Below are positions 8,998-25,610 of a DNA stretch of 64,000 nucleotides, one piece after another. Below the pieces are notes generated by a model. The model ran no database searches, was not told the DNA's origin, and worked only from the letters and a program-made list of their open reading frames with translations. The position numbers and the translations under genes are program-made. This DNA is from Oscillospiraceae bacterium (lineage in GTDB: Bacteria; Bacillota; Clostridia; Oscillospirales; Acutalibacteraceae), in assembly GCA_012520505.1 (NCBI GenBank), contig JAAYOC010000021.1, positions 143,218-207,217 on the forward strand, written 5' to 3'. Within the stretch, counting starts at the first letter, position 1. The number at the start of each line of letters is the position of its first letter.

Positions 8998-9933
8998 ATG
9001 AGGATGAAAGGTATGAAACAACCTTTAATACTTGAAATAAAAGGTAATTCTCTTGACGATGGACCCGGTATTCGTTCGGTTGTATTTTTTAAAGGGTGTC
9101 CGTTATCATGTGTTTGGTGTCATAATCCTGAAAGTAAAAAAACAGTAACGGAAATTTCGTTTTCTGCACGGGATTGTATAGGATGCGAAACTTGTCTGAA
9201 GGTTTGTAAAAAGCAGGCTCTTAGTAAAAGTAATCCTCATTATATTGATCGTGATAAATGTGATTTATGTTTTGAGTGTGTTGAAGTTTGTCCCGCAAAG
9301 GCTCTGACAAGAGTTGGGAAAGAAATGACTGTTGATGAAATTATAAATCGTGTTGCAAGCGACAAACCTTTTTATAATGTATCGGGTGGCGGAGTAACGT
9401 TATCCGGAGGGGAAGCAACATTGTTTCCGGAATTTGTAGGTGAGTTGCTTAAAAGGTTAAAAGAAAATGAAATAAATACACTTGTTGAAACATGTGGACA
9501 ATTTAACTTTGAAGATTTTAAAAAACATATTTTACCTTTTACTGATATGATTTATTACGATTTAAAACTTTTCGATTCAAGACTACATAAAAAATATTGT
9601 GGTACAACGAATGAAAATATTCTTGAGAATTTTGAAAAACTCTTTAGATTATCACAAAAGGGAGATTTTATTTTACTCCCAAGAACACCGCTAATTCCAA
9701 ATATAACTGATACAGATGAAAATCTTATATCAATAGCAGATTTCCTTAAAAACCTTGGTGTTAAAAGGTCTGAGTTGCTTTCATACAATCCAACGTGGTT
9801 TGAAAAAAATCAAAAGCTTGGAATTTTGGTAGATGAAGAGATAAGTGAAACTGAAAAGTGGCAAGCTCAAGAAAAAATTGCACATTGTGAAAAAATTTAT
9901 ACTGATAGGGGAATAAAGGTAAGACAGGAATAA
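8998..9933 (+). CDS. Glycyl-radical enzyme activating protein (radical SAM) with two ferredoxin-type 4Fe-4S motifs
   Basis: DDGPGIRSVVFFKGCPLSCVWCHNPES (CxxxCxxC), inserted CIGCETCLKVCKKQA and CDLCFECVEVCPAKA, GGVTLSGGEATL. Confidence 0.93.
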   Translation: MRMKGMKQPLILEIKGNSLDDGPGIRSVVFFKGCPLSCVWCHNPESKKTVTEISFSARDCIGCETCLKVCKKQALSKSNPHYIDRDKCDLCFECVEVCPAKALTRVGKEMTVDEIINRVASDKPFYNVSGGGVTLSGGEATLFPEFVGELLKRLKENEINTLVETCGQFNFEDFKKHILPFTDMIYYDLKLFDSRLHKKYCGTTNENILENFEKLFRLSQKGDFILLPRTPLIPNITDTDENLISIADFLKNLGVKRSELLSYNPTWFEKNQKLGILVDEEISETEKWQAQEKIAHCEKIYTDRGIKVRQE

Positions 9934-10025: not shown

Positions 10026-11765
10026 TTGGAGAAAGGGCAATTGAAAAAGTCCATTGAAAGGGTGGTTTTTGTGGATAAGAAAGAATTGATTAACAACAAG
10101 TACGTTGCGGGTGTTGGTATTAGAGCCGCATTGGGGATGATGGCATTTTGTTTTAACAGATTTGAACAATACAAAAAGTATTTGCGTTCAAAAGATGGTT
10201 GGATTAATTTTTCTGCCGGTCTTATGACTGAAAATAATTCAGTTGCAGCAACCATTACATTTAAAGATGGAAAAGCAAGTGTCAGATCCGGAGCTGAAAA
10301 CACAGAAGTACTGTTGATTTTTGAAAATGAAGAAGTATTACTTTCATTAGCGACGGTGCCGCCTAATGAAGTAAACAACCTCATACTTAAAAACAAGTTA
10401 GTTGTCAAAGGTAACTTTGTGTATCTCTCATTTTTCAATTTATTGATGTCTGTTCTACTTAAGGATAAGCAGATAAAGCAACTTAAAGAGCAGAAAGAAA
10501 AAATGTCTTTACCTTCATTAGGAGATAAAACAAAAAGTATTAACTTTAGAAAAAAGGAATATTTGAAGGCAACTGAAAGAGATAAGTTCGTAAAATATTT
10601 AACCGATCAAAACCTTTCAGATTATTCTTTAGAAGATTTCCCACGACTTGTGAAGTTTTTAAATATTCATTACACTGAAAAACCTACCGTTTGTATAGAA
10701 AGACCGTCTATTTTAACTGATTGGTTCAGAGAAAATGGATTTGAATATAAAAAAGACGGAACTCCTTGGGTAGCAGAATTAAGACAGGCACATGCGTATA
10801 AGCATCTTATGGAAAACAGAAAACCGATTATAAGAAAAGATGACCTAATTGCAGGTACTTCTACAACAAAGGAAATCGGTGTAATTATGTATCCTGATGC
10901 CTGTGGTCCTCTTATTTGGGGTGAAATCTTGACTTTCCATGAGAGACATTTAAATCCATATGACATTGATCCGAATGATGTATGGAAACTTACAAATGAA
11001 ATTTTTCCATTCTATTTCAAGAGAAATGTTCGTGAGTGGGTAAGAAGTGCCTACGATAGACCTATTTGTCAGCAACTTGATGAAAGATATGCTGTTAACT
11101 TCCTTTGGAAATCAGTTGCGATTTCACATACGATTTTAGATTATCCAAAGCTTCTGCGCTTAGGACTTCAGGGAATAATTAAAGAAATTAAGTCTGAACT
11201 GAAGCTTGATAAAGAAGCAAATCAGCAAAAGAAAGACACTCTTAATGCTATGATTTTGTGCTGTGAAGGAATAATAGCCTATGCACATAATCTTTCAAAA
11301 CAGGCAGCTAAAGAAGCTGAAAAAGAAACTGATCCTAAACGTAAAGCAGAACTTTTGAAGCTTGCTGAAATATGTAAAAAGGTTCCTGAAAATCCATGTA
11401 CAACTTTGGATGAAGCCTTAAATGCTATTTGGATTCATTGGGTGGCTGTTCATATGGAAAGCACGAACGCAGGATTTTCACTTGGTAGAATGGATCAGTG
11501 GCTTCAGCCTTATTTTGAAGCAGACATGAAAAAGATGCTAACCGATGAGGATAAAGAAGAGTATATTAAGCATGCAATCGAAATGGTAGGTTGTTTTTAT
11601 ATGCGATGCACTGATCATCTTCCAATGGTACCGGACATAGGAAATTATCTGTTTGGTGGAAGCTCTTCAGACCAAGCAATTACTTTAGGTGGTGTTACTC
11701 CTGAGGGTGAAGATGCAGTTAATGATATGACATATATATATTCCTCAAGGTTACTGAAATCTTAG
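10026..11765 (+). CDS. Glycyl radical enzyme, N-terminal part (SCP2-like extension plus GRE barrel start); interrupted by frameshift
   Basis: N-terminal ~150 aa resemble SCP2 pattern; then GRE-like KRKAELLKLAEICKKVPENPCTTLDEALNAIWIHWVAVHMESTNAGFSLGRMDQWLQPYF; frame lost at (AT)5 tract 11732-11741. Start codon uncertain (TTG 10026, TTG 10041 or GTG 10071). Confidence 0.85.
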   Translation: MEKGQLKKSIERVVFVDKKELINNKYVAGVGIRAALGMMAFCFNRFEQYKKYLRSKDGWINFSAGLMTENNSVAATITFKDGKASVRSGAENTEVLLIFENEEVLLSLATVPPNEVNNLILKNKLVVKGNFVYLSFFNLLMSVLLKDKQIKQLKEQKEKMSLPSLGDKTKSINFRKKEYLKATERDKFVKYLTDQNLSDYSLEDFPRLVKFLNIHYTEKPTVCIERPSILTDWFRENGFEYKKDGTPWVAELRQAHAYKHLMENRKPIIRKDDLIAGTSTTKEIGVIMYPDACGPLIWGEILTFHERHLNPYDIDPNDVWKLTNEIFPFYFKRNVREWVRSAYDRPICQQLDERYAVNFLWKSVAISHTILDYPKLLRLGLQGIIKEIKSELKLDKEANQQKKDTLNAMILCCEGIIAYAHNLSKQAAKEAEKETDPKRKAELLKLAEICKKVPENPCTTLDEALNAIWIHWVAVHMESTNAGFSLGRMDQWLQPYFEADMKKMLTDEDKEEYIKHAIEMVGCFYMRCTDHLPMVPDIGNYLFGGSSSDQAITLGGVTPEGEDAVNDMTYIYSSRLLKS

Positions 11766-13033
11766 CAATTAGAGACCCTAATGTAAATGCTCGTTATTAT
11801 GCCGGTAAAAATAGTGAAGCATACTTAAAGAGACTTTGTGAAGTTAACGTTAATACAACAGGTACACCTTCAATTCACAACGATGAAGTTGTTATGGATT
11901 CACTCAAAGATTTTAATTATCCACCGGAACATCTACGTGATTGGGCAGCTACCGGTTGTGTAGAACCTACTCTTTCCGGAAAGCATATGGGACATACAAA
12001 CTGTATGATGTTTAATATGGTTGCAGCTTTAGAGATGGCTCTTTATGACGGCTATCATCCACTAATGCGATGGCAGCTTGGACCAAGGACAGGTCACCCA
12101 TCGACTTTCAAAACTTTTGATGAGTTCTTTGAAGCTTTTTGTGCTCAACTGAAATGTTTAGCAGACTATTCTTGTGATTATAATAATAAACTTGGTGAGG
12201 CACATAGCATCCTTAGACCGACACCTATGATGTCCACACTTATGGATAACTGTATTGAAAAAGGTTTAGATGTAACAAAGGGCGGTGCTTTATATAACAC
12301 ATCAGGCATTGCTGCAATCGGACTTGCCGATATCACAGACTCATTGCTGGTAATAAAGAAATTGGTGTTTGAAGATAAAACTTATACTCTTGAGGAAATA
12401 TGCAATGCAACAAGAGCCAACTTTGAAGGACATGAAGTTTTAAGAAGTAAAATGCTTACCTCAGTAAAACTATTTGGCTCCGACAGCCAGGAAGCAGTAG
12501 ATATAGCTGATAGAATTGCTAAATACTTACATGATATCTTGTTAGCAAAGAAAAATTTCCGTGGCGGTCCATACACCGTAGGCTTTTGGTCAATGTCTAA
12601 CCATGTGGCTTTCGGTACTCTAACAGGAGCACTTCCTTCAGGACGTCTTTCAGGCAAACCATTTACTCCGGGACTTACCCCTGAAGCACATGCTTCTCAC
12701 AGTTTGCTTGATAACATAAAGGATGTTGCGAAACTTAACTACGATAATATTAATAACAATATTGCATTTAATGTTAAAGTGGTTCCATCGGCCAAGGATA
12801 GCCATGAACAGACTGTAAATAATCTGTATTCATATGCAAAAGCCTATTGCGATTTAGGCGGTATGCAGATGCAGTTCAATGTCGTGTCCAGTGAGACGAT
12901 GCGTGCTGCAATGAAGAATCCGGATGAATATAGGGATCTTTTGGTTCGTATTTCCGGTTATAACGCTTACTTTGTAACACTTAACTACGATCTACAAATG
13001 GAGCTTGTTGAACGAGCAGAATATGGGTTGTAA
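11742..13033 (+). CDS. Glycyl radical enzyme, C-terminal part (catalytic Cys and glycyl radical site), in the -1 frame
   Basis: Translation from the frameshift reads FLKVTEILAIRDPNVNARYYAGKNSEAYLKRLCEVNVNTTGTPSIHNDEVVMDSL...; GCVEP (Cys codon 11957) and RISGYNAYF (Gly codon 12956). Confidence 0.88.
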
Positions 13034-16320: not shown

Positions 16321-19300
16321 ATGGAAACAACACGTACAAATGTAGTTGTTGAAAAAACAACTCCGGCAAATCATTTGTCTGACAAGTTTAGGGTTGTAAA
16401 AATCCAACGTACTTGTGTACATGACGGACCTGGAATTCGTACCACCGTATTTTTTAGCGGGTGCGGACTTAGATGTCTTTGGTGTCAAAACCCGGAATCA
16501 TTGTTGATAAATGATAATCCAAATGCCGAGGATTACTCTGTGGATGACATAATGCAGGTAGTTAATCGTGATAAAGATTATTATGATGCAACGAACGGTG
16601 GAGTTACTTTAAGTGGAGGAGAGCCTCTCTTACAAAATTCAAATTTACTTGTTGAACTTCTTTCAAGGTTAAGAAAAGAAAAAATAAATACAGCTGTTGA
16701 AACAACACTTAATGTACCGTGGGAAGCAGTGGAAAAGGTTATTCCATATGTTGATGTTTTCTTTGTTGATATAAAGACAGCAGGCGATGAAGAACAACAT
16801 AGAAAGCTTACCGGTAATGATGGAAAGCTTATTAAAGAAAATATTGAAAAGCTTGTAGAGACTGAAGCAAAGATTAACTTTAGAATGGTTATGGTTCCTG
16901 GACTTAATGATACTGAGGATCAGATAGAGAAAGTGTCAAATCTTTTGAAATCTGTAGGTTATGACAGGATAGAACTTCTAAAATACAATAACATGTATGA
17001 AGAAAAGGCAGTGAAATTTAATCTTGATATTCCAAAACTTAACATTACTGAAGAACAGGCAGAAACTGCTATTAAACATGGACTTGAGACATTTAAGAAA
17101 AATGGAATAAATGCAGTTTATGTTAAGTTAAATATAATTGGAAGAACTGCAACATATACACAGAGAGTTCTTGATATACAGCAAGATATAAGAGATGCCG
17201 GAAGAGCACTGTGCATGGAAGTTAGTAAGCTTAAAACAAGATATTACAGAAAGAACGGTTTTGATAAGCCAACACCTATTCACAGGTCGGAAAGACTTAA
17301 ATATGTTTTGGAAAACAAATCTGTAATAGTTTGGCCAAAAGAGCTCCTTGTCGGAAACTTTACGGCAAAGAGATGCGCAGGTCAGGTTTGGGAAGAACAA
17401 TATGGTGTTCTTGATGTAAGCTTTTTGTATAAAATAAACCATCAAACACCGGTATCTTTTAAATGTCCTTTAAAGGATAGACTTTACTTTTATACACGCA
17501 TAATGCCTTTCTGGATTCCACATAGCCTTTTGCTTAAGGTTAATACAAAAATTTCAGATTTTATTGCTATGCTTGGGCGTTCTTCTGAAATGATAGCAGG
17601 CTTCCAAAACAATATGGCAGCAATAGCTCATTTTATCCCAAATTATGACAGAATACTTGAACTTGGAACAACCGGTCTTATAGAAGAGTTAAAGCAAACT
17701 GCAAAAGAACATCCGGAAAATAATCAGGATTTCTATAAAGGCGCAATAATGGGATTAGAAGCTCTTGCAAATTGGGCTGATAGGTATGCAGCTGAGTTAA
17801 AACGCCTTGCAGGAATTGAAAAGGATGAAAAGCGTAGGGCGGAGCTTGAAAAAATGGCTGAAATTTGCCAGAGAGTTCCTAGATATCCTGCACGCACATT
17901 CCATGAAGCTCTTCAAAGCATTATTTTCCTTCAAATAGCAATTTGCCAAGAAGCATATGAAAATGCGGTTTCATTTGGACGCATGGATCAGATACTTTAT
18001 CCATACTATAAAGCAGACTTAGATGCAGGAAGAATAACATATGATGAAGCAAAAGAGCTCTTATGCTTATTTGTACTTAAGATGGATGAGTGTATATTGG
18101 TAAACGATGGAGATTCGTTGCTCAATATCGCAAAACTTTTTGAAACGTTATCAACTGACCAGGCATTGACTTTTGGTGGTTGTGACAAGGACGGAAATGA
18201 TGCAACAAACGATATAACATACATGTTTATTGATGCTTGTGAGCTTCAGCCGCTTGCAATTAACATGTGTGCACGGATTAATAAAAACAGTCCAGATAAG
18301 TATCTTGAAAGATTGGCAGAAATATATATCAATGGTTGTCCAATGCCGGAAATGTTTAGTGACGATATATATTTAGATGCTATTCCAAGGAAGCATGATA
18401 CAACTATTGAGAATGCAAGAAATTATGCTATCGTAGGTTGTGTTGAACCACTTGCATCAGACGACCATTTTGGAAATACTGATAGTGCGAATGTTAATGT
18501 TGTGCTTCCAATGCTTCAGGCAATAAAGGGTCAAAAGCATGATCTTTGGCATTATTCGAACAAGCAATATCTTGAAAATGTAGTAACAAGGTTTATTGAA
18601 TATGCTATTGCTCCTAAGAAAAAATGCCCATTCCTTTCTGCTATCACAAGAGCTAATGATAGAGCAATAGAAAAACGTAAAGTAAAGAGAGGAATGTATA
18701 AATACAATCCACCAACAAGTATGGAAGAAATTCTTGAAGCATATCAGGAAAGACTTAATGAACTTACAATATCAATACTTCTTGATCAACAAAAGATATT
18801 AGCTGCACTTGAAAAAAACTTTACAACACCAATGGCTTCCTCTTTGTTTAGAAATTGTGTTGCAACAGGTAAAGATGCATATGAAGGAGGCACTTTCTAT
18901 AGAAGCCATGGAATTCAGGCAGTAGGAATAACAGATGTAGCCGATTCACTTTATGCAATTGACGAACTTGTATTTAAGCAGAAGAAATATACATTGCTTG
19001 AAATAATAGAAGCGATTGACAGTAACTTTGAGGGTTCAAAAAATCAAAAAATAAGGGAAGATATTCTTGCAATTCCAAAATTTGGAGATGACTCTTGTCC
19101 TGAACCGGCAAAATGGGTTACAAAGGCAATGGAGATGTTCTGCAATGCTCTTGATGCCGTTCCAAATACTGATAAATACGGTGTTTATACGGCAGGTTAT
19201 TATGCGCTGAATGTAAATGATAGATATGGTCTTAAAACACAGGCACTTCCATCCGGCAGGTTAAAGGGAGTTCCACTTGCAAATAGTACTACTCCACATT

Positions 19301-19647
19301 ATGGAATGGAAGAATCAGATTTATTATCCTCGCTTAATGCTATGGCACAGGTTAACTTTAGAGATTTTGCTCCTAATGGAACGACAGCAACATTACATAT
19401 TGACTCTGCACTTTTCCCGGGAGAAGAAGGAATAAAAAATCTTGCGGCATTATTTAAAACATTCCTGACAAAAGGTGGAATGCAGTTCCAGCCTAATGTA
19501 ATAAGTAGGGAAATATTGATTGATGCCTATAACAATCCGGAAAAGTATAAGTATTTAATGGTTCGTGTTGCTGGTTATTGTTCATATTTCAATGAGCTTT
19601 CAGATGACTTGAAGAAAGTAATAATAAACAGAACTTGCTATGCATAA
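16321..19647 (+). CDS. Fusion protein: radical SAM glycyl-radical activase (N-term) + glycyl radical enzyme (C-term)
   Basis: N-term [39 protein letters not shown]; C-term catalytic AIVGCVEP (Cys codon 18439) and glycyl motif [10 protein letters not shown] (Gly codon 19573); one uninterrupted 1108-aa ORF. Confidence 0.93.
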   Translation: [1108 protein letters not shown]

Positions 19648-20466: not shown

Positions 20467-20794
20467 TTATGCAATCAATATTCCTTGATTGGTATTTCGT
20501 ATCTGTAAGATATCTTTACACTTTAGCTGTTAATACTTTGTAAAAGTGTATCTGTTATAATGTATATATGCATACTTTAATTTTTAGAAAAATGGGGTGT
20601 TTTTATGTATCCATGTTGCGTTATTATTGCCTTGATTTTTCTTAAGCTTTGGGGGGCCGAAGATAAAGCAAAAATATTTATAAATTATATTAAAAAATCA
20701 ATCAAGTACAGGGGAAAAGAAAAAGTAAGTTTAAAAGAGGAATTTAAGAAAAATTCGGCTTTTAAAGATAAGTATGATAAGGGGAGGTATACAG

Positions 20795-22702
20795 ATGGAA
20801 GAACGCAAATTATCAATTTATGAAACGGATTTTGTTGATGGACCTGTTACTAAAAAACATAAAAAAATAGCATGGACTATTTATTTTATCTTTGCAGTCA
20901 TAGGTATGTTGCCAACTATTTTCAACCTAAGTTGGGGACTTCAGGTTGCTGGGTTAGGAATTGTTCTGCCCGGTGGCGGATTTTTAGCAATAGGTGGTGG
21001 CTTAGGAGTTCTTTATTTTGTTATAACTATCATTTTGATGGTGGTTATCGGGTTAGGTCTTTGGTGGGGAACAGGAAATCAATTGGCTCCCTTTTTTGTC
21101 TGGATTCTTGCAGACATACTAGCATGTACAGTTTTTTTACGTGATCCTATATGGGGTAATATTGGTATATATGCCGTCGTAATAATTGTATTTTTATATT
21201 TTTTGACAGGTCGAATAAGGAATAAAAGAGAATTAAAGAAGCAACTCCAAGAACAGAAAGAACGTTTAGAATTTTTCAAGACTGAAATACCGGCTGAAGA
21301 GGCGCTTGCAGAGCCTGAGGTAGAAGACGGCAAATTTGAATTGAATGAAAAACAATTAGCTCAGCAAAGATATTTGTTTGACACGGCATTTGCACCGTAT
21401 GGTGAATTTAAAGGTTTTACAAAAGTAAAATGGCCACAGTTTCCTACAACATCTATTCGTTATCAAATTAATCAGATGCTGAATACTATGCAACAAATAC
21501 AATGTCAGTACACTCCAAGCTTTCACGGATATGCTACGGAAGCACAAAGAAGGTTAATTAATCTTTTTCTGCATCCACGTGTCTGGAGCTATTGGAGATG
21601 GGAAAATTTATGGGGCGGAAATTTTATAATAGACGCAAATCCTATTGGGAAAGATAATGTAATGTTAACCGGTTTCTTTTTAATCAATGTGACTATGTAT
21701 ATGAAAAATACGGGAGATATGATTTATTCCGAACCGGGAAGTTTAGTTTTCAAAGATAAGAGACACCAATTTGATCATAGTGTACATACAATAGCTGATG
21801 CAATTGTTAAAAATTGGAACACCAATGACTACGTAGTTTATCCGTGCGAGCCAAATTGGAATTATTCATTATGCAATTGGAAAGCAATTCAGAGTATGGT
21901 TAATTATGACTCTCTGTTTAATTCTGATAAATGGTCAAAACACAAGCAAAAAGTAATGAACGGCTTTATTAATGAAATGACTCTGCCAAATGGCAGTTCG
22001 TATTTGTTTAAATCTACAAGAACAGGCTATGGTGTTAATCTTCCTGTATCTACGGCTGAAGGTTTTCAAATTTGTATGTATAACACGGTTGATCCATTAT
22101 TGGCAAGACAGACTTATGCCTTTTATAGAAGGGACACTTATAAGCGCAGTGAGGATGGAGAATTGATACTTAAAGCTATACCTTTTGACCATGGGGATTT
22201 ATCCATGACTTATGGAGATACGGTTGCTTTATCTATGTTCCCAGCTAAAGAAATGGGTGATACTGAAGCCGCTAATGCGTCATTGAAAGTATTAGAGGAA
22301 AAAGTTACACAAAGCATTGAAAACGGCGCAATACGTCATAATTGTTCAACTGAAGTAAATGCTTTGCTTTTGCAGGCATCAATTAATACAAGAAATGGCT
22401 GGAGAAGAGCAGTTATTGACGGTCCGGCAAAAAGCACTTTGACAGGTCCTTTATTGAGTGAGGTTTCCTACCCGGATGTTTTGGTTGCTAAAGCATTTAG
22501 CCATGGGGAAGATCTTGAATTGGTATTGTATCCTGGAGTTTCTGACGGTAAACAGAATCTTAAAATTAGCAGATTGGTTCCTGGACAGAAATATTTGATA
22601 AAAGAACAGAATATTTCATTTTTTGCAAACGAGAATGGTGTTGCTGAAATTGAAGTTTTAATTTCGGGACGTACTGAAATTACAATGATACCGGAGAAAT
22701 AG
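20795..22702 (+). CDS. Membrane-anchored linalool dehydratase/isomerase (Ldi)-like protein
   Basis: N-terminal hydrophobic helices followed by [41 protein letters not shown] and [22 protein letters not shown], which parallel the Ldi segments around its CEP-x7-C catalytic cysteines; RBS ggggaggt. Confidence 0.78.
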
Positions 22703-22704
22703 AT

Positions 22705-24834
22705 ATGAAAACTGTTAGCTATTTTATTGAAGGGATGTCTTGTGCTGCATGTAGCATTAGACTGGAGTCGGTATTAAGCGAAGCGGATGGTGTTAAATCC
22801 GTAAATATTTCATTGACAGAAAATAATGCAATAATAATATTTGATGAAACGGTTACTTCTGAAACTGAATTAAAAAATATAATTTCAAATATTGGGTATA
22901 AAGCAATTGATAATACGTATGATTCTGATTCGGCAGATAGAAAGCAAAAAATAAAAACCTTATTTTCTAAAGCATTTTTATCTTTTATTTTGACACTTCC
23001 TTTAACAACGGATGTTTCGGTATATCTTAAAATAATTCTTGCTTCAGTAGTTCAGTTTTATATTGGAAAAGTATTTTATTCGGATGCACTTAAAGGACTG
23101 CGTAGTAAAGCGATTAATATGTCATTTATGGTTGCACTAAGTACAACTTGTGCTTATTTGTACAGTTTATATTGGGCTTTGAAGGGAGATTTATCTCATA
23201 TATACTTTGATTCATCCGCAATTGTGATAACAATGGTATTGACCGGGCGTTTGATAGAAGCAAAAGTTAACGAAGGGTCACAATCTGTATTGGAGGCACT
23301 TTTAAAGCGTGCCCCTAAAACCGCATGTCGGATTGATGAAAATGGTGAAAATATCGTTGCAGTAGAAGATATTATTCTTAGAGATATCTTGATTGTAAAA
23401 TCAGGAGAAAAAATCCCGCTTGACGGGATAATAGTAAGTGGCGACGCTTGTGTTGATGAATCAATGTTGTCGGGAGAAAGTCTTCCGGTTGAAAAGGAAG
23501 TTGGAGATAAAGTATTTTCCGGTACAATCAATACCCAAGGGGTTTTTCATATGGAAGTTACTTCTACCACCGACGATACGATTTTATCTGAAATTATTTC
23601 AGCGGTAAGTCTTTCTTTGTCAGATAAAGGTGAAATTCAAAGAATTACTGACAGAATAGTTGGATATTTTTGTCCGGCAGTTATTCTTATTGCGGTAATA
23701 ACTGCGATTATATGGTATGTTTGGATTGACCCTAAAAATCCTTATTTGGCACTAAATAATTTTATGAGCGTAATAGTAGTTGCCTGTCCATGTGCTTTAG
23801 GTATAGCAGCTCCGATTTCTATATCTGCCGGAATCGGACTTGCAGCAAAGCGAGGAATAATCATTAAAGGTGGGCAACATATTGAAAAATTGTCGCAAAT
23901 TACATCAGTTGCGTTTGATAAAACAGGTACTCTTACAAACGGAAAGTTTGAAATTACTGATATATTAGTAATGAATGATTCTTCACCTGAAGAATTGATT
24001 TTGAATGCGGCGATTGCAGAAAAACATTCATGTCACCCTTTGGCGGAAGCGGTAATTCGCTATTTTGGAGAAGATCCGGACAAAATTCCTGAACCGGATA
24101 GTGTCACAACAGTCACAGGTAAAGGTATTATTGCAAAAATAAAATCCAATGAAATTGTCATTGGAAATCCTAATTTTGCCAGGGAACATGGTGCAGATAA
24201 AGAAGATCTCGAAAAAATTTTATCACACTTATCTAATGAAATTAAAACGTCACTGATTATCCTGAAAAACAATATTATTCAAGGTGCAATATTTTGCCAA
24301 GATAGCATTCGTAAAGAATCGTATTCGGCGATAGAACTTCTTGAAAGTATGGGCATTGAATTCTACATGCTTACCGGAGATAATGAAATTGTTGCCGAGG
24401 CAATAAGTAAAGAACTCGGGATAAAAGAATATTATGCAGGTGTTTTACCACAAGGTAAAGCTGAAATTGTTAAGAAAAAAAGTCATGACGGACATCTTTC
24501 AGCTATGGTCGGCGATGGTATTAATGATGCAATTCCTCTTTCTGAAGCGGATATCGGATTTGGAATTGGTGGACATACTGATATTGCGTGCGAAGCAGCA
24601 GACATTATCATAATGGATGGCGATGTGTCAAAAGTTCCTGCTTGCATTTCCATTGGAAAGGCAACTACTAAAAATGTTTATCAAAATCTTTTCTTTTCTT
24701 GCATTTATAATGTTGTTGCGATTGGTATTGCTGCATGTGGTTTACTTAATCCGGCTGTTGCGGCGATTTCAATGTCTCTTAGTTCAATATCCGTTGTTTC
24801 AAATGCAAAACGAATGGAGAGGTTTAAATTATGA
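22705..24834 (+). CDS. Copper-type heavy-metal P1B ATPase
   Basis: [11 protein letters not shown] motif, [12 protein letters not shown] (CPC), [24 protein letters not shown]. Confidence 0.95.
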
Positions 24835-25610
24835 AAGATAAAAAATTTAGTGCTTTTGAAGTTGCTACAACGATTCTAGCTTTGGCAATAATTATTTTTT
24901 ATATTTGTCAATATGTAATCGGCTTTAACATAATTGGTTATATCTCACAATGGCTAAGCGGTAGGGGGATTATTCGTCCGGTACTTGATGAAAAAGTCAG
25001 CTATGGAATTATTTTTATGTATGGCATGCTAACGTCGATACATTGTATTGGAATGTGTGGAGGGTTTGTAATTGCTGTAACTTCTTGTGAAACAAAAAAA
25101 TCACGTATACTTGAAAATGTAAAATATCAGATATCAAGAGTTGTTTCATATAGTATCGTTGGTTTGGTCCTTGGAAGTTTTGGAAGTTTAATTTCATTGT
25201 CAACACGGGTACGTGCATATGTTCCAATAATTAGTGGACTGTTTATGTTAATTATTGGTTTATCAATTTTATTTGGAGGTTCTGCATTTCCCATTCCTAA
25301 ATTTTACTCTGAAAAGCTCGTTAAAATGAAGTCTGCTAATTCAATTGTAATGGGATTGCTTACCGGACTGCTTCCTTGTGCATCAATGCAATCTGTTCAG
25401 CTTTATGCACTTGCTACCGGTAATGCCTTAAGCGGAATGATGACGATGATGGTATTTGCGTTGGGTACAATTCCACTTCTTTTTCTATTTGGCGCACTTA
25501 ACGTAATTTTCGAAAAGAAAGGTTGGAAGTGGGTTTTACCATTCTCTGCTATTATTGTTATCGTTCTTGCAGTAAACATGATATTACGTGGGGTAAAAAT
25601 GTTGGCATAA
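24831..25610 (+). CDS. Sulfite exporter TauE/SafE family-type membrane protein
   Basis: [21 protein letters not shown]...[47 protein letters not shown]. Confidence 0.85.

Follow-up and report, generated by a model that had tools for sequence, protein, structure and literature searches.

The question raised by this locus is which reaction, and on what kind of substrate, is catalysed by the membrane-fused protein encoded at positions 20795-22702 of the forward strand of the window (the whole stretch of 64,000 nucleotides of Oscillospiraceae DNA analysed here). The gene lies within a single open frame of 642 codons (20774-22702, +). Because a conserved small ORF (20605-20823, +) overlaps there, the ATG at 20795, which yields a protein of 635 residues, is the likelier start than 20774, and residues are numbered from it (counting from 20774 adds seven). 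A search of the genome carrying the window returned one copy of the gene. The protein matches PF18566, the Pfam family of linalool dehydratase/isomerase (Ldi), with 222.8 bits (E=1e-65; curated cut-off of 26.1 bits), and comparison with PDB sequences retrieved Castellaniella Ldi only, with an E-value of 4e-5 for the single sequence and 4e-11 for a profile of five sequences. At the level of sequence, this match does not arise by chance, and the assignment to an Ldi-like enzyme family, made in a preliminary description from the letters of the DNA, is confirmed.

The active site of Ldi comprises D38, Y44, H128, C170 and C179 (PMC12455561). In the alignment, C170 and C179 correspond to window-protein residues C351 and C360, the first and last of the motif [10 protein letters not shown] (21845-21874, +; residues 351-360), while D38 and Y44 fall outside the PDB Ldi alignments, which start at residue 61 or later. 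C351 and C360, together with E352, P353, N361 and Y223, are identical in all eight membrane-type proteins compared, which derive from Clostridia, Alphaproteobacteria and Actinomycetota. The two-cysteine Ldi motif recognised previously thus stands, and the stretches [23 protein letters not shown] and [10 protein letters not shown] lie where they had been placed. The further statement that spacing and flanks match Ldi holds for the cysteine pair and fails in part for the flanks, since the ungapped alignment sets F294 (codon at 21674-21676, +) against Ldi H128. Among the eight membrane-type proteins this position is occupied by Phe in seven and by Tyr in one. The window protein therefore belongs to the same catalytic domain family as the Ldi of Castellaniella defragrans (PDB codes 5HLR, 5G1U and 5I3T) and has its two active-site cysteines, but differs from that soluble, periplasmic enzyme, which carries a signal peptide, in having a fused membrane part and Phe in place of His128. 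A soluble clostridial relative (locus L003), which is much nearer to Ldi than the membrane type is (E=7e-50), keeps both GH and CEPDQYFPQC. At that locus (L003:235-2643), which belongs to another genome within the phylum, two tandem soluble Ldi-like genes stand beside an amidohydrolase gene.

The N-terminal membrane part (20855-21214, +; approximately residues 21-140) displays four strong hydropathy peaks, at about residues 25-43, 69-87, 97-115 and 119-137, and a weaker, glycine-rich hydrophobic stretch at 48-69 that holds an invariant PGGGF, consistent with the fusion to membrane helices described earlier. Judged by hydropathy, this part would consist of four helices, possibly with a re-entrant segment in addition. 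As the number of helices is even, the C-terminal domain is predicted to lie inside, and clusters of Lys and Arg at residues 20-24, before the first helix, and 140-149, after the last, are consistent with both ends of the membrane part being inside. Hydropathy and charge thus support, as likely, the cytosolic side previously proposed for the catalytic domain. The same architecture has been described for linalool isomerase (Lis) of the soil bacterium Thauera linaloolentis 47Lol, a protein of 644 residues with four predicted helices in its first 139 residues and a large C-terminal Ldi-like domain predicted to be cytosolic; its activity was measured in the inner membrane, it isomerised geraniol and both enantiomers of linalool, it required a reductant, and it showed no activity when produced in E. 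coli (PMC4791888). Compared by description only, the window protein resembles Thauera Lis in length, in its four N-terminal helices within ~140 residues and in an Ldi-like domain placed on the cytosolic side, the side being a prediction in both proteins; the host, a gut Clostridia member rather than a denitrifying betaproteobacterium, and the gene neighbours are different. Since Thauera Lis already has this architecture, a membrane-fused form facing the cytosol is not new (PMC4791888), contrary to the novelty implied by the preliminary description.

We consider it probable, at somewhat better than even confidence, that the window protein is a Lis-type allylic-alcohol isomerase acting at the cytoplasmic face of the membrane. 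The enzyme would be held in the membrane at this face, where a hydrophobic alcohol would partition, the C351/C360 pair would perform acid-base work as in Ldi, and the hydroxyl would be shifted between tertiary and primary allylic positions. Support for isomerisation is drawn from the PF18566 and PDB matches, the conserved cysteine motif and the architecture shared with an assayed Lis; the replacement of Ldi His128 by Phe and an identity of 26-29% to other membrane-type proteins are counted against it. The preliminary description had favoured a hydro-lyase, and an Ldi-type dehydratase or hydratase, converting an allylic alcohol to a diene or the reverse, would indeed share with Ldi both the family and the cysteine pair. 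However, because Lis and Ldi are not alike in dehydratase activity (PMC4791888) and Ldi His128 is Phe here, with Phe or Tyr in all the membrane-type proteins compared, such a role is less likely than isomerisation, and we regard it as unlikely. From sequence comparison, the loss of the His may accompany the loss of dehydratase activity, and a swap of Phe or Tyr for His offers a simple test of the distinction between isomerase and dehydratase.

Models built by AlphaFold2 from five sequences were of low confidence for both the whole protein (pLDDT of 51.5) and residues 181-635 (pLDDT of 58.3). Foldseek nonetheless ranked Ldi chains on top for both weak models (best E-values of 4e-5 and 6e-6), with TM-scores (TMq) of 0.26-0.35 and rmsd of 9-12, values from low-confidence models for which the barrel and the pocket are beyond reach. 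This ranking agrees with the sequence result and, as far as such models go, is added to the support for an isomerase. GH127 and other (alpha/alpha) barrel enzymes appear below the Ldi chains, and both the fold class and the C-terminal beta domain resemble those of glycoside hydrolases, which would suit a family member with another chemistry, acting for example on a sugar-containing substrate. The GH127-type matches, however, score far below those to Ldi and were obtained with a model of low confidence, and the Ldi cysteine motif is kept in all the proteins; we hold such a chemistry to be improbable.

Further membrane-type relatives are encoded on plasmids of Novosphingobium, Aureimonas and Rhodococcus, where they are annotated as hypothetical proteins or not at all. 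They share with the window protein the membrane part, a PGGGF-like stretch, the motif CEP(N/R)xx(Y/F)xxCN and Phe or Tyr at the His128 position, but are only 26-29% identical to it and have other gene neighbours; at this level of identity the substrate may differ. Genes for ADH, ALDH and P450 lie near the Rhodococcus relative, while on the Aureimonas plasmid (L037:5018-8167) the Lis-like gene partly coincides with a gene for polyprenyl diphosphate synthase (uppS) and itself lies ahead of a gene of the diacylglycerol kinase family. These isoprenoid and alcohol genes, together with an FAD protein in the Lis neighbourhood of genome G166 that matches models of the geranylgeranyl-reductase superfamily below the cut-off (E=5e-15), lend additional support to the isomerase. 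From the family and from the gene neighbours in other bacteria, the most likely class of substrate is probably a hydrophobic plant isoprenoid alcohol; phytol was considered, as a guess and one candidate among others, and was not adopted. The Aureimonas arrangement would also suit an isoprenoid-modifying enzyme that acts on the polyprenols or another lipid of the cell itself and not on a nutrient. The clostridial copies, however, lack such genes alongside, and PF18566 matches were found in only two of 200 genomes of the family (that of the window and G166), a rare and patchy occurrence unlike that of a housekeeping lipid function, which leaves a role in the cell's own lipids with little probability.

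A restricted distribution was also apparent in the other searches. At genus level, PF18566 was matched in two of 11 genomes (that of the window and G599), and a draw of 398 genomes of the phylum yielded one other genome with a match, of the soluble type. Scanning genome contigs with two peptide patterns, which gives a lower bound, recovered at least four loci, all in MAGs from buffalo, goat or rumen samples; two of them, L016 and L017, lie, as judged by length, on the same contigs as the G599 and G166 genes, respectively, and are not extra finds. In these searches, close relatives of the Lis-like protein occurred only in five genomes of ruminant-gut Clostridia, which, with the glycyl radical enzymes of the genome, fits the earlier suggestion that the host is an anaerobe. 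So far a single bacterium has yielded an assayed Lis. The clostridial copies, which sit next to a conserved gene set, would offer a second lineage for substrate finding and would connect allylic-alcohol isomerisation with strictly anaerobic bacteria of the ruminant gut, a habitat in which what becomes of phytol and other isoprenoids from the diet has been explained only in part (PMC8495353).

Among the details that are new here are the Phe or Tyr at the His128 position in all eight membrane-type proteins compared and the conserved set of small ORF and ATPase genes in ruminant-gut Clostridia. The unannotated small ORF, which encodes 72 residues with a MYPCC start and one hydrophobic segment, and for which a Pfam search matched no family, precedes and overlaps the Lis-like gene in all five loci, and in L016 it is in the same frame as that gene. 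Differences between the L017 and L014 copies number 11, 1 and 25 at codon positions 1, 2 and 3, respectively, a pattern as for a coding sequence, although the last part of the ORF overlaps the Lis frame and the test is therefore not fully independent. Directly after the Lis-like gene, again in five of five loci, lies a gene for a heavy-metal P-type ATPase with an HMA domain (22705-24834, +). It is followed by a gene for a DsbD_2-type membrane protein (24831-25610, +; PF13386, E=5e-42) in the window and, in the same order, in G166, while the contigs end there in the other loci. One may speculate that the ATPase and the DsbD_2 protein serve the Lis-like enzyme, for example by guarding its cysteine pair.

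In G166 and G599, the Lis-like gene shares one cluster with genes for a glycyl radical enzyme, its activase and a protein of 280 residues, for which the label 'PNPOx-like' was set aside as weak. The genome of the window has the orthologous glycyl radical enzyme (70% identity to that of G166) and activase on contig C1, away from the Lis-like gene. Within the family draw, orthologues with at least 61% identity were present in six genomes, including both Lis carriers; the naive chance of this is 7e-4, a figure based on two genomes that were not drawn independently. As four of these six genomes contain the enzyme but no Lis, the enzyme can do without Lis. The clusters around it in G043 and G160 contain two FAD proteins and a flavodoxin-reductase-like protein bearing a 2Fe-2S domain, and that of G160 an esterase as well. 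It is a tentative and rather doubtful proposal that, in ruminant-gut Clostridia, a plant isoprenoid alcohol is processed by an undescribed anaerobic pathway made up of the Lis-like enzyme, the glycyl radical enzyme and its activase, and flavin reductases of isoprenoid type; literature searches that combined glycyl radical enzymes with either linalool dehydratase or geranylgeranyl reductase turned up no paper. A fumarate-adding glycyl radical enzyme takes part in anaerobic limonene breakdown (PMC12583861). Among PDB sequences, however, the clustered enzyme matched hydroxyproline dehydratase, choline lyase and diol/glycerol dehydratase above benzylsuccinate synthase; with eliminases ranking higher and Cys-x-Glu read by eye, we make no claim that it is of the fumarate-adding type.

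Two further glycyl radical enzymes are encoded in the window. A single frame of 1108 residues (16321-19647, +) encodes a fusion of a radical-SAM activase with a glycyl radical enzyme, and G144 contains a frame of 1108 residues with a similar match; with only 27% identity to the Lis-clustered enzyme of G166, the fusion is not its orthologue and was rejected as a Lis partner. The second enzyme (10026-13033, +), preceded by an activase (8998-9933), has a frame broken near 11740: frame 0 meets a stop at 11765 and homology goes on in frame 2, while the G166 homologue is unbroken, so that either real decay or an assembly error may be responsible. A sterol-carrier domain proposed for this enzyme was discarded, the Pfam SCP2 match (E=0.059) being below the cut-off and missing from the homologue. 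Just past its Lis cluster, G166 encodes another glycyl radical enzyme together with an activase, as well as an aldehyde:ferredoxin oxidoreductase (L020:8126-12051 and L020:2696-4702).
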